A DNA stretch of 25,840 nucleotides from Verrucomicrobiota bacterium (GTDB lineage: Bacteria; Verrucomicrobiota; Verrucomicrobiia; Opitutales; Opitutaceae), in contig JAUPWC010000021.1 in the NCBI GenBank assembly GCA_030916665.1, forward strand, positions 1 through 25,840, read 5' to 3'. Shown in pieces: positions 21,339 through 25,442 of this stretch. A program made the position numbers and the translations under genes. Positions within the stretch are counted from its first letter, which is position 1. Every line of letters starts with the position of its first letter. The notes beneath the pieces are model-generated. The model was given only the letters and a program-made list of their open reading frames with translations, searched no databases and was not told the DNA's origin.

Positions 21339-21929
21339 TCAACGCCCTAGACCCGCCTGAGTCAAAAGTTGTTTCATTTCATCCACCGGCAGCCCCACAA
21401 TATTTGTCAGCGATCCCGTGAAGCCGGCCACGATCAGGTCGCCGTGTTCCTGGATTCCATAGCCGCCGGCCTTGTCGAGGGTGTGGACCTTGCTCAGGTA
21501 GAGCTCGATGGTGGCCTCGTCCAGGACCTTGAAGGTCACCTCGCTGGCGACGCCCCGGTCGAGTCGGAGCCCGTCGCTCAGCCGTCGCACGGCCAGCCCG
21601 GTGAACACCGTGTGCCTCCGCCCGCTGAGCATGCGCAGCATGGCGCGGGCGTCGGCGGTATCGCGGGGCTTGTTGAGCACGGTGCGGTCGATGAACACCG
21701 TCGTGTCGGCCCCGATGACCGTAGCGTCGGGATGGCGCGCGGCCACCCAGTCGGCCTTGAGTGCGGCGTTGTGCGCGACCATCACGCGCGGATCGGCGTC
21801 CGGCGCCTCGTGCTCGGTCACCTCGGCGGGAACGATGTCGAACTGGTAACCGAGCTCCGCCAGCAGTTCGCGCCGACGCGGCGAGGCGGAGGCGAGGATG
21901 AGCGGCGCGGCTTTTTTGTGCTCGGGCAT
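21339..21929 (-). CDS. maf: Maf family nucleotide pyrophosphatase
   Basis: The 196-residue Maf/HAM1-fold enzyme hydrolyses non-canonical or surplus nucleoside triphosphates to monophosphate and pyrophosphate. Motifs seen: [12 protein letters not shown] (12-23), a phosphate-binding Ser/Arg loop; E39; K58 in NAALKAD; GADT (73-76) with the catalytic-type aspartate D75; LNKP (85-88); [17 protein letters not shown] (152-160); and [10 protein letters not shown] (172-181). The K/Q pattern is like the dTTP/UTP-preferring YhdE subgroup rather than the m7GTP type, but I hold that loosely. It starts at the ATG at 21929. It is first in a three-gene operon and divergent from nadE with a 58-bp gap. Confidence 0.93.
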
Positions 21930-21987
21930 GATAGGCTATGTGTTTGCAGTCCGGCGGCTTGACCCTCAGTTGTCTAATCCAATTTCC

Positions 21988-23670
21988 ATGCGCATCGGCC
22001 TGGCCCAGATCAACACCATCGTCGGCGACCTCGCCGGAAACCGCCGGCTCATCGAGGCCGCCTACAAGACCCTCGTCGCCCAGGGTGCCGAGCTGGTTGT
22101 TTTCCCGGAACTCGTCGTCAGCGGCTACCCGCCGCGCGACCTGCTCTTCAAGCGCCGCTTCGTCGCCGACGTCGAGGCCGCCACCCGCGAAATCGCTGCC
22201 GCCATCGGCGCCGTGCCGGCCGTGATCGGCTACACCGAGACCAACACGACGCGCCAGGGCCGCCCCTACTTCAATTCCGCGGCCTTCTGCCACAACGGCC
22301 GCATCCTCGCCTCCGGCCGCAAGTGCCTGCTGCCGACCTACGACGTGTTCGACGAGGACCGCTACTTCGAGCCCGCCGCCGGCCCGACCGTCGTGGAGTT
22401 CGGCGGACGCCGCATCGGCATCACCATCTGCGAGGACATCTGGACGCACAGCATGATCTCCACCCGGCACCTCTACAACGGCGTGGACCCCGTCGCCCAG
22501 CTCATCGGCAAGTGCGACCTCATGGTCAACCTCTCGGCCAGCCCGTGGTATCACGGCAAGGGCCACGTGCGCCACACGCTGGTCAGCGACACCGCGCGCC
22601 GCCTCGGCTGCCCGGTCGCCTATGTCAACGCCATCGGCGGCAACGACGAACTCATCTTCGACGGCCGCAGCCTCGCGGCCGACGCCAACGGCCGGATGCT
22701 GGCCGGGCTGGCCGCCTTTCGCGACGATCTGCAGGTGATCGAGCTCGGCAAGGTCACGCCCCACAGCCGCCCGCCGCTCGTGCCCAATCCCGCCGACGCG
22801 CCCTATCTCCACGCCAGCTTCAGCCAGGAGGAGATGGCCGACATCTACGAGGCGCTAGTGCTCGGCCTGCGCGACTACGCCCGCAAGACCGGTTTCAAGA
22901 AGGCCCTGCTCGGCCTCTCCGGCGGCATCGACTCCGCCCTCACCGCCGTCATCGCCGCCGAGGCGCTCGGTCCGCAGAACGTCATCGGCGTCAGCCTGCC
23001 GTCGGTGATCTCCAGCCAGCACTCCCGCGACGACGCCGCCGCCGTCGCCAAGAACCTCGCCATCGCCTACCACACGCTCTCCATCGCCGACGTGGTCGCG
23101 TCCGCCGAGGGCGCGCTCGCGCCGGTCTTCGCCGGCCGTCCGCGCGACATCGCGGAGGAAAACATCCAGGCCCGCGCCCGCGGCCTGTTGCTGATGGCCA
23201 TCTCCAACAAGTTCGGCGCGCTGCTCCTCACCACCGGCAACAAGAGCGAGCTGGCCGTCGGCTATTGCACGCTCTACGGCGACATGTGCGGCGGCCTCGC
23301 GGTCATCAGCGACGTGTTCAAGACGCAGGTCTATGCCCTCTCCCGCTGGATCAACCGCCACAAGGAAATCATCCCGGTCAACTCCATCGACAAGGCCCCG
23401 AGCGCCGAGCTGCGCCCCAACCAGACCGACCAGGACAGCCTGCCCCCCTACGACATGCTCGACGCCATCCTCAAGGGCTACGTCGAGGAAGGCCTGTCCC
23501 GCGCCGATCTCGTGGCGCAGGGTTTCTCCGAGGCCGTCGTCAACGACATCGTCCGCAAAGTGGATCTCAACGAATACAAACGGAAGCAGGCCGCCCCCGG
23601 CCTGAAGATCACCCCCCTCGCCTTCGGCGTCGGCCGCCGCATCCCGATCGTGCAGCGGTATGTGAGCTGA
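21988..23670 (+). CDS. nadE: Glutamine-dependent NAD+ synthetase
   Basis: The 560-residue two-domain enzyme makes NAD+ from deamido-NAD+, ATP and glutamine. I use the ATG at 21988 ([18 protein letters not shown]), the family start. The frame opens earlier at 21898 but that part overlaps maf on the other strand. The N-terminal nitrilase-type glutaminase has the Glu-Lys-Cys triad: E41 ([14 protein letters not shown]), K112 ([18 protein letters not shown]) and C148 (ITICEDIW). The C-terminal synthetase has the ATP loop [10 protein letters not shown] (310-319), [13 protein letters not shown], and [30 protein letters not shown]-like TCTAAT at 21973-21978 lies about 10 bases before the start without a clear -35, so the mRNA may have almost no leader. 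It is followed by the inserted GxxExxY cassette. Confidence 0.97.
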
Positions 23671-23684
23671 TATTTTTCTGGTCA

Positions 23685-23713
23685 CCACTAATCCACACTA
23701 ACGGGCCACTAAT
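23685..23713 (+). repeat. Left CACTAAY triple-repeat end of GxxExxY cassette
   Basis: Three heptamers, CACTAAT (23686-23692), CACTAAC (23696-23702) and CACTAAT (23707-23713), start 10 and 11 bases apart. That is one helical turn each. The set is matched in inverted orientation at 24110-24138. CTGGTC (23678-23683) and GACCAG (23717-23722) form an outer inverted pair around it. The third heptamer abuts the ribosome binding site of the enclosed gene. Confidence 0.8.
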
Positions 23714-23718
23714 GGAGA
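23714..23718 (+). promoter_or_regulatory. Shine-Dalgarno site of the GxxExxY gene
   Basis: GGAGA is followed by a seven-base spacer and the ATG at 23726. It directly follows the last CACTAAT heptamer, so a protein or RNA structure on the repeats could affect translation. Good sites of this kind are rare in the window. Confidence 0.6.
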
Positions 23719-23725
23719 CCAGCAA

Positions 23726-24109
23726 ATGACCGCGACGACCGGACTGTATCAGCAGGAAGGCTATGACTTCATGGCCGCAGTGTTTGAGGTTCATAACGAA
23801 TTGGGCAACGGCTTCCTCGAGGAAGTTTATCAGGAGAGCTTGGAGATGGAGCTCAACGACCGGGGCATACCCTATGTCACCAAGCCCCGGCTCACGCTTC
23901 ACTACAAGGGGCGCCCCCTGAAGAAATATTATGAAGCCGACCTGATCGTCATCGGGGAAATTGTCGTGGAGCTTAAGGCAGCCAAAGCGCTCACGACGGA
24001 ACACGACGCGCAGCTGATCAACTACCTGAAAGCCACCCGCAAGCGGGTCGGTTATCTCGTGAATTTCGGCTCGTTTCCCAAGCTCGAATGGAAACGCTTG
24101 GTTCTCTGA
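23726..24109 (+). CDS. GxxExxY family protein (PD-(D/E)XK nuclease-like)
   Basis: The 127-residue protein carries the naming motif G29-F-L-E32-E-V-Y35 (ELGNGFLEEVYQESLEMEL). Downstream is a PD-(D/E)XK-like core, D72 in YYEADLIVIGEIV and E82-L-K84 in VVELKAAK, followed by HDAQLINYLKAT and VGYLVNFG. This matches the GxxExxY family (NCBIfam TIGR04256, Pfam PDDEXK_3), whose biological role is not established. No signal peptide or membrane helix is seen. The gene has its own Shine-Dalgarno site, a visibly lower G+C and more A/T-ending codons than nadE and hemL. It is enclosed by inverted triple CACTAAY repeats that end 14 bp after the nadE stop and 8 bp before the hemL ATG. Together these suggest a transferred cassette. 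Nuclease activity is inferred from fold residues only. Confidence 0.9.
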   Translation: MTATTGLYQQEGYDFMAAVFEVHNELGNGFLEEVYQESLEMELNDRGIPYVTKPRLTLHYKGRPLKKYYEADLIVIGEIVVELKAAKALTTEHDAQLINYLKATRKRVGYLVNFGSFPKLEWKRLVL

Positions 24110-24138
24110 ATTAGTGTCTCATTAGTGTCCGTTAGTGG
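24110..24138 (-). repeat. Right CACTAAY triple-repeat end of GxxExxY cassette
   Basis: On the plus strand ATTAGTG (24110-24116), ATTAGTG (24121-24127) and GTTAGTG (24131-24137) are the inverse of the left set. Read inward from 24138, the starts are again 10 then 11 bases apart. Over 29 aligned bases the two ends agree at 23. The last base lies eight bases before the hemL ATG, and the first base overlaps the stop region of the GxxExxY gene. Confidence 0.8.
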
Positions 24139-24146
24139 TTCAAAAA

Positions 24147-25442
24147 ATGCCTTCCTCCTCCGAACAACTCTTCGCCCGCGCGCAGCAGCTCATCCCCGGT
24201 GGCGTCAATTCGCCCGTCCAGGCCTTCCGCTCGGTCGGCGGGGCTCCGTTCTTCACCCGCTCCGCGCAGGGCGCGACGCTCACCACGGCCGACGGCCGCG
24301 AGTTGATCGATTTCGTCTGCACCTGGGGCCCGGCGATCCACGGGCACAACCACCCGCGCATCAAGGCCGCCATCGCCGACGCCCTCGAGCGCGGCACTTC
24401 CTTCGGCACGCCGAATCCCTACGAGGTCGAGATGGCTGAGCTGATCGTGTCGTTCTTCCCCTCGATTCAGAAGGTCCGCATGTGCAGCAGCGGCACCGAA
24501 GCCACGATGTCGGCCATCCGGTTGGCGCGCGGCTTCACCAAGCGCGACAAGATCATCAAGTTCGCCGGCTGCTACCACGGCCACAGCGACTCGCTGCTGG
24601 TCGCGGCCGGCTCGGGCGCGCTCACCCACGGCAACCCCGACAGCGCCGGGGTGCCGGCCTCATTCGCGCGCGAAACCGTCGTCCTGCCCTACAACGACGC
24701 CGCTGCGCTCGACGCCGCTTTCGCTGCCAATCCCGGCCAGATCGCCTGCGTCATCCTCGAGCCCTACATCGGCAACGTCGGCTTCATCAAACCCGACGCC
24801 GGTTACCTGCAGCACGTCCGCAAGGCCACCGCCGCGCACGGCACGGTGCTCATCTTCGACGAGGTCATGACCGGTTTCCGCCTCGCCCGCGGCGGCGTGC
24901 AGGAGTTGGAGAAGATCACGCCCGACCTCACCTGTCTCGGCAAGATCATCGGCGGCGGCCTGCCCGTCGGCGCCTTCGGCGGCCGCGCCGACATCATGGA
25001 TTACCTCGCGCCGCTCGGTCCGGTCTATCAGGCCGGCACGCTCAGCGGCAACCCGCTCGCCATGGCCGCGGGCATTGCCTCTTTGAAGCTGCTGAATCAC
25101 AATCCCAGGGAAACAATTTCTCCATACGAAACAATGGACGCGCTCGGACGACAAATTCGCAGTGCGGCCTTGGCTGCGGCCAAAGCCAAAGGGATGCCGC
25201 TTCAGGTTCCGCAGGTCGGCTCCATGTTCAGCCTGTTTTTCACGGCCACCCCAGTGCGCGATATGGCCAGCGCTCTGACCTCCGACGCCAAGCTCTATGG
25301 GCGCTTTTTCCATGCCTGTCTGGCAGCGGGAGTTTATCTCCCCCCCAGTGCCTATGAATCTTGGTTCTTAAGCACTGCTCATGAAGGTCCGGCCGTAGAG
25401 GTAGCTTGCGAAGTCATCACCTCTGCGATTAAGTCCCTCTAA
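24147..25442 (+). CDS. hemL: Glutamate-1-semialdehyde 2,1-aminomutase
   Basis: This PLP enzyme converts glutamate-1-semialdehyde to 5-aminolevulinate in the C5 route to haem. Its 431 residues are the usual length. Landmarks are [18 protein letters not shown] (15-32), [65 protein letters not shown] with D238, and the PLP lysine K266 in [18 protein letters not shown]. The ATG at 24147 is preferred over an in-frame GTG at 24135, which lies inside the inverted repeat. The leader is only CAAAAA plus the repeat end, with no Shine-Dalgarno sequence. From about 25081 the G+C falls sharply (about 56% by hand count to the end, against about 70% in a sampled upstream line), with A/T-ending codons. The frame is intact and the C-terminus ([14 protein letters not shown]) looks normal. 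Confidence 0.96.

Follow-up and report, generated by a model that had tools for sequence, protein, structure and literature searches.

The GxxExxY gene of the window, by which we mean the whole 25,840-nucleotide stretch analysed here (Verrucomicrobiota bacterium, GCA_030916665.1, contig JAUPWC010000021.1, positions 1-25,840), appears to belong to a population of short elements with inverted repeats, as the member that carries a gene. Each such element would consist of two three-heptamer arms, mostly AAC followed by three copies of CRCNRAN with spacers of 2-4 bases, and then the inverse. Most elements would be gene-free hairpins of about 60-190 bp, the gene being carried by one or a few of them per flavour (that is, per heptamer word) and genome. 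We consider it somewhat probable that these dispersed hairpin repeats and their cognate PD-(D/E)XK nuclease gene form a system resembling REPIN/RAYT, in which the nuclease mobilises the elements; the system is probably of a new kind. In the window the cassette and its neighbours are arranged as follows.

21898..23670, + strand: upstream neighbour, putative nadE (name from the sequence reading in the preliminary description)
23684..23713, + strand: left arm, AC followed by CACTAAT-3-CACTAAC-4-CACTAAT
23686-23692, 23696-23702 and 23707-23713, + strand: left-arm heptamers
23714..23719, + strand: candidate Shine-Dalgarno-like GGAGAC, found by reading the sequence, with the start codon 6 bases on
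23726..24109, + strand: GxxExxY gene, 127 aa, TIGR04256/PF13366, PD-(D/E)XK superfamily
24110..24139, - strand: right arm, inverted, AC followed by CACTAAC-3-CACTAAT-4-CACTAAT on the - strand
24131-24137, 24121-24127 and 24110-24116, - strand: right-arm heptamers
24147..25442, + strand: downstream neighbour, putative hemL (named from the same description), used as the query for orthologous junctions

The preliminary description had placed the gene between inverted CACTAAY triplets, and this arrangement was recovered: the heptamer occurs six times in the window against 0.85 expected, a count reached in 0 of 100 shuffles, and every copy flanks the GxxExxY gene. CRCNRAN triplets of any flavour occur once per strand in the window, while the one-strand count was 0 in 30 first-order simulations. 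On rereading, the heptamers of both arms start 10 and then 11 bases apart from outside to inside and the arms are identical at 23 of 29 bases, both as described earlier; the arm pair is the longest inverted repeat within 23300-24500 (42 nt, 74%). The right arm starts at the base next to the stop codon of the gene. The G+C content of the gene is 54.7%, compared to 67.6% for nadE and 65.0% for hemL, which agrees with the lower value noted before. The view that the gene and the inverted triplets make up one unit was also upheld. No target-site duplication could be made out at nadE-hemL.

The window protein matches PF13366 (2.3e-39, 134.8 bits versus a curated cut-off of 22) and TIGR04256 (8.1e-40, 135.8 bits versus 35). 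Residues E32, D72, E82 and K84, which correspond to the conserved E, D and ExK of PD-(D/E)XK nucleases, are invariant in 22 aligned rows. A PDB sequence search gave a single, weak match (E 0.54). At least 162 of the 288 sampled genomes of the phylum match the GxxExxY protein search. A role as a defence gene was rejected, the PADLOC matches being weak (best Cas4 at E 0.0034). With the window protein as a single query, a type of search that misses distant members, 0 of 50,697 phage records and 8 of 72,556 plasmid records were matched, and the search with alignment A1 found 2 loci in viral contigs; spread by phages or plasmids was rejected on these counts. In the literature searched, which covers few subscription journals, we found no description of these arms or flanks, nor of the role of the family.

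The next question concerned the flanks of GxxExxY genes at large. Loci were taken from 80 records of named genomes (best 80 of 556 confirmed relatives), from 30 loci of the phylum search and from the relatives' loci (104 genes, 101 with arms). For the arm-swap comparison, 165 gene matches were reduced to 155 after removal of duplicates and to 148 with full arms. The upstream flank and the inverted downstream flank of the same locus matched better than swapped flanks: 118 of 148 loci exceeded the 95% level of the swaps and 83 exceeded the 99% level (75 with all swaps). Among controls, the 95% level was exceeded by 1 of 22 hemL flanks and by 9 of 80 other ORFs of the same records, 4 of the latter also exceeding 99%.

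We then fitted six heptamers, using all 64 CRCNRAN words, to 218 distinct loci obtained by merging on the first 100 residues. At a threshold of 38/42, picked after the distribution had been seen (the series was computed from 33 to 40), at least this fit was reached by 116 of 218 loci, by 16 of 218 when arms were swapped between loci and by 0 of 218 when shuffled. The expectation that such repeats accompany GxxExxY genes thus held for these 116 loci and failed for the 102 that fit below 38/42. Good fits made up 81 of 139 phylum-search loci and 35 of 79 named-record loci (79 of the 80 records were counted), and they are spread over 16 of 23 taxon labels, with 1 of 20 in Bacteroidota; the labels were assigned by us from record titles. 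Spacing is the same on both arms in 102 of the 116 loci, compared to 34 expected and a maximum of 51 in 2000 shuffles. The helical phasing suggested by the window, however, is not a general rule: left-arm spacings are dominated by 9,9 (44 loci) and 9,10 (40 loci), and 10,11 is found in 6.

In the 122 loci with a fit of at least 37, the two arms agree at 92% of heptamer positions and at 56% of spacer positions (34% between different loci), so the match between arms lies more in the words than in a perfect stem. Where a base deviates, its nested partner carries the same deviation in 21 of 215 cells, compared to 20 of 461 when the two are not partners. This hints weakly at pairing or at common origin, and strict stem pairing is thus weakly supported. 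The two bases just outside the arms agree in 91% and 96% of cases, versus 39% and 77% between loci, and the most frequent outer end beside the CRCNRAN heptamers is AAC/GTT. As a separate observation, PF05635 (23S_rRNA_IVP) genes (L084-L113) also lie between inverted short-repeat arms, built of other words and, in several cases, repeating about every 7-8 bp. Here 24 of 30 loci were compared (L089, L094, L099, L106 and L109, all five too short, and L110 were left out), and 15 of the 24 exceeded the 95% level of swapped arms.

The heptamer words follow the lineage of the protein. In a quickly built tree of the 116 proteins with a fit of at least 38, the words require 42 changes, whereas shuffled words require 93.8 on average and 88 at minimum. 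Taken base by base, the seventh and last position needs 7 changes (shuffled mean 50.0, minimum 44), the fourth 15 (39.0, 34), the fifth 16 (38.5, 29) and the second 20 (34.3, 28); spacing needs 28 (57.6, 51). In 41 genome-labelled rows from relatives, 14 words are accounted for by 14 changes, the minimum possible being 13, while the genome labels of the same rows require 34, no better than the shuffled 32.6. CACTAAT pairs with proteins of (or near) the LYQQEGYDFMAA type in eight genomes, CGCGGAT with MIHEKLSGEIIGAAM-type proteins in G004, G012, G013 and G023, and CGCGAAG with LLYRDEVYRI-type proteins in six genomes. Since the shuffles leave out vertical descent of orthologous cassettes, part of this association is linkage, and physical linkage by itself could keep flavour and protein together. 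This is what the strongest alternative proposes: another enzyme spreads the hairpins, and GxxExxY genes ride in their loops as cargo. We regard this as possible but unlikely; that single-base differences in flavour track protein clades over many loci and taxa speaks against it.

Gene-free copies of the same repeats are present in the genome of the window itself (4.29 Mb, 698 contigs, 85% complete), which contains 10 GxxExxY matches and 14 CACTAAY triplets, control patterns giving 0. Two of the triplets belong to the window cassette and the other 12 lie at 10 sites, none of which coincides with any of the 10 GxxExxY matches. Both arms are exact triplets at two of these sites, the partner arm has one or two exact heptamers at seven, and one site (L012) has no visible partner. 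The gene-free arms are at most about 35 bp apart, except at L024, where an interior of about 150 bp holds a nested pair of CACGAA-type repeats. Further GxxExxY genes of this genome have, by eye, arms of CACGGAA, CGCGGAG, CACAGAG, CACAAAA and others. A side observation concerns locus L065, where two near-identical CACGAAT hairpins without a gene enclose a GxxExxY gene, resembling a small composite element.

In G013, 1.52 Mb were scanned blindly for three like 7-mers (20 of 21 letters identical, three or more different letters, spacing 9-11) with the same word inverted within 1500 bp. This returned 41 inverted and 10 direct pairs, and 0 in a first-order Markov copy. All 41 inverted pairs can be read as CRCNRAN in some register, 39 facing inward and 2 outward. 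By content, 33 have an interior of at most 135 bp (total length 57-187 bp), three have interiors of 384-395 bp that coincide with GxxExxY genes, and five are longer, with an IS-like insert or spanning neighbouring elements and genes. The scan recovered three of the seven GxxExxY genes among the matches listed in that stretch. Its six words (CACGGAT, CACTAAT, CGCGGAT, CACGGAA, CACGAAA and CACAGAG) each have their own GxxExxY cassette in G013, the CACGGAT one fitting at 37/42. Many CACGGAT and CGCGGAT loops contain further hairpins, and once CACTAAT lies inside CACGGAT. Two side observations were made in this genome. Loops of CACGGAT and CGCGGAT (L252-L327, e.g. G013:C1:3563171-3563334) often hold an inverted repeat of the TGTCATCCTGAGCGAAGCGAAGGATCC type, and one loop also holds an IS-like transposase gene (3779107-3780514), which we take to be IS110-like. 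Moreover, CCAAGGCATTT is found just outside several arms of different flavours (G013:C1:3530634-3531634), perhaps as a preferred insertion site.

The number of gene-free copies was compared with the presence of the cognate cassette across 21 genomes of the genus, using triplet counts for four words. Cassettes with a fit of at least 37 were taken from the matches listed, so genomes scored as lacking one may hide weak ones; the CGCTAAT cassette of G010 was included on the basis of its right arm. Where a genome has a cassette of a given word, it carries more other copies of that word (centred permutation p 0.0012 both with and without the G005/CGCTAAT cell, and 0.0058 when G013 is left out too; a first run that included the G005 cell gave a raw p of 5e-5 and a centred p of 6e-4). 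Copies without a seen cognate gene also exist: at least 9 CACTAAY in G017, 12 CGCGGAT in G003, 30 CGCTAAT in G012, and 11 CACGGAT triplets in G007 (86% complete), which has no GxxExxY gene among the matches listed. In G005 (L392-L411) the CGCTAAT pair lies inside a unit of about 190 bp (AAATTCCGCAG ... GTTTTCTAGG) that has multiplied recently. Another engine probably moved these copies, as they sit inside a unit larger than the pair, and for this reason the G005 amplification was rejected as proof of GxxExxY action.

The G005 copies therefore count in favour of the cargo explanation, as do the other inserts in loops of gene-free elements and the PF05635 genes, which are likewise enclosed by inverted short-repeat arms, of another type (15/24 above 95%). 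Against it stand the dependence of copy number on the cognate gene and the contents of the 41 G013 pairs (33 short, 3 with GxxExxY, 5 long with an IS-like insert or neighbours), among which no second cargo family is apparent. The tie between protein and repeats suspected in the preliminary description has gained ground in two ways, as flavour tracks protein lineage and the number of gene-free copies follows the cassette. If anything, the gene-bearing copy would be the complete form of the element and the gene-free hairpins the dependent ones.

As single strands, three gene-free units fold with z values of -6.9 to -8.0; they fold well, so a hairpin substrate is possible. Rho-independent terminators were rejected, as the CACGGAT units mostly have the T-run first and the A-run last, the wrong orientation on either strand. 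Known RNA families were also rejected, with two sub-threshold matches only in the five loci scanned.

The history of the window copy was traced at the hemL junctions of relatives, of which 22 (L025-L046) of 30 hemL loci were judged by eye.

CACTAAY cassette, 6: G000, G005, G012, G013, G016, G018
CGCTAAT cassette, 3: G001, G004, G010
CACTGAT cassette, 2: G015 (on what is left of a CGCTAAT cassette), G024 (another genus)
Right arm of a CACTAAY cassette as a relic, 1: G009
Pair of a different word without the gene, 1: G020
CCTATARG-type short repeats in the nadE-hemL gap, no GxxExxY cassette, 3: G003 (L034), G011 (L031), G017 (L026)
Short plain gap, 3: G002, G006, G008
Rearranged, 1: G019
nadE end not found upstream, 2: G022, G023

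Eleven of the 22 junctions thus carry a GxxExxY cassette upstream of hemL, six of them CACTAAY. The nadE end lies upstream of 10 of these 11, the eleventh (G010) being cut by the contig, and in G001 it is separated from the cassette by a few hundred additional bases. As the cassette and the nadE order are common to relatives, the window copy is inherited, and we found no support for a minimal cassette of recent arrival and unique to this site. The preliminary description had named three observations that would refute its reading: GxxExxY genes without such arms, repeats without the gene, and a nadE-GxxExxY-hemL order shared by relatives. Each was seen in part, with 102 of 218 loci fitting below 38/42, many gene-free sites and relatives carrying the same order. 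Taken together, these facts are better explained by a population of repeats and its cognate gene than by a single mobile cassette.

Pairwise, the six orthologous CACTAAY cassettes differ at 4.4% of heptamer and 14.3% of spacer positions, at 61% of fourfold codon sites and at 21.7% of amino acids. The low divergence of the heptamers relative to fourfold sites indicates that the words are under selection at this inherited site. Such strong conservation of protein and heptamers would also be expected in a regulatory network, where the GxxExxY protein would bind or cleave intergenic DNA or RNA hairpins acting as operators and so control expression, mobility being incidental; the good single-strand folding of the three units agrees with it as well. 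We find this explanation rather improbable, because gene-free units are absent, reduced to relics or changed in flavour at orthologous sites of sister species. For G013 and G019, comparison of 8 distinct of 53 G013 elements (a looser list) and of 5 of 11 in the other direction gave 11 distinct orthologous sites, at which, by eye, the word was the same in 2, different in 3, and absent or a relic in 6. At one of the two sites with the same word, the CGCGGAT pair has an additional hairpin nested in its loop in one genome and lacks it in the other. No target-site duplication was made out in this comparison, the flanks being 74-94% identical and too diverged for one to be read.

We also considered that the repeats are the REPs of a RAYT, an HUH transposase, with GxxExxY as a bystander. 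Y1_Tnp genes are present in 16 of 21 genomes of the genus, and the five genomes free of them hold 0 to 3 triplets per word for the four words, among the matches listed. However, an inverted CRCNRAN pair around the gene was found in 0 of 30 Y1_Tnp loci among the matches listed; one locus (L450) has a single CACGGAT triplet nearby without a partner, and at L445 a gene-free pair lies far from the Y1_Tnp gene. As none of the 30 loci examined is enclosed by arms, RAYT was rejected as the owner of the repeats, and we see very little chance that it holds this role. Equally improbable in our view is homing, in which the nuclease would cut pairs of its own flavour that lack the gene, and repair would copy the gene into them: the arms are the same in cassette and gene-free forms and the CACTGAT cassette of G015 lies within CGCTAAT remains upstream of hemL, but at about 30 bp the arms are short for homologous repair and the spread of gene-free pairs is left unexplained.

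Returning to the system of hairpin repeats with a cognate nuclease, we infer from the sequences that the GxxExxY protein binds, cuts and mobilises the elements. The protein would recognise the heptamers of its own flavour and nick or cut at the arms, probably in their hairpin or cruciform form. Copying would be started by its putative nuclease centre (E32, D72, E82-x-K84), and host repair or replication may then copy the elements, both in cis and in trans.

In way of life, REPIN/RAYT is the closest of the known systems. According to the accessible parts of the respective papers, inverted REP doublets form hairpins and are tied to specific RAYTs (PMC3116915), RAYTs are single-copy and vertically inherited with REPINs more numerous where a RAYT is present (PMC8049555), and RAYT genes are flanked by GTAG repeats or long TIRs (PMC3733652). 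Within what these sources describe, the elements reported here share with REPINs the form of dispersed extragenic inverted doublets, able to fold as hairpins and present in many copies, as well as the higher copy number in the presence of the cognate gene (p 0.0012; 0.0058 without G013; cassettes among the matches listed). As with RAYTs, the cognate gene is flanked by the same repeats and inherited vertically. Unlike a RAYT, it encodes a PF13366 PD-(D/E)XK protein and not an HUH tyrosine transposase. The arms are made of three heptamers, most often with an AAC/GTT outer end, and lack the GTAG-tagged palindrome of REPs as these sources present it, and, again in comparison to the REPIN/RAYT systems covered there, many flavours coexist in a genome, each with its own protein clade.

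MITEs share terminal inverted repeats with gene-bearing parent transposons, and here, too, such repeats are common to gene-bearing and gene-free forms. However, the enclosed gene is no known transposase, the arms are triple heptamers, and a target-site duplication was not seen, the flanks being diverged. Homing endonuclease genes are small nuclease genes residing at sites that they may recognise; they differ from the present system, in which the site also exists in many copies without the gene and inverted arms stand on either side. The TAACTGA repeats of Beggiatoaceae are intergenic direct repeats of one heptamer with one inverted case, as far as the available part of the source goes (PMC4679880). 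They resemble our elements in being intergenic heptamers but not in the inverted arms and the linked gene family, none being found for them in that part of the paper.

More generally, GxxExxY proteins of many phyla may act as the cognate nucleases that mobilise repeat populations coded by heptamers. This would be the nuclease-driven equivalent of REPIN/RAYT: single letters of the word would change with the protein clade, and many parallel families, each with its own nuclease, would coexist in one genome. We put this forward tentatively, as a plausible extension held with less assurance than the system itself. If it is true, an abundant nuclease family would gain a substrate, namely its own flanking words, and a common class of intergenic repeats would gain an engine. 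The more than 100 natural pairs of protein and word, some only one base apart, would provide a code for DNA reading by PD-(D/E)XK proteins, and the REPIN/RAYT way of life would have had a second, independent origin.
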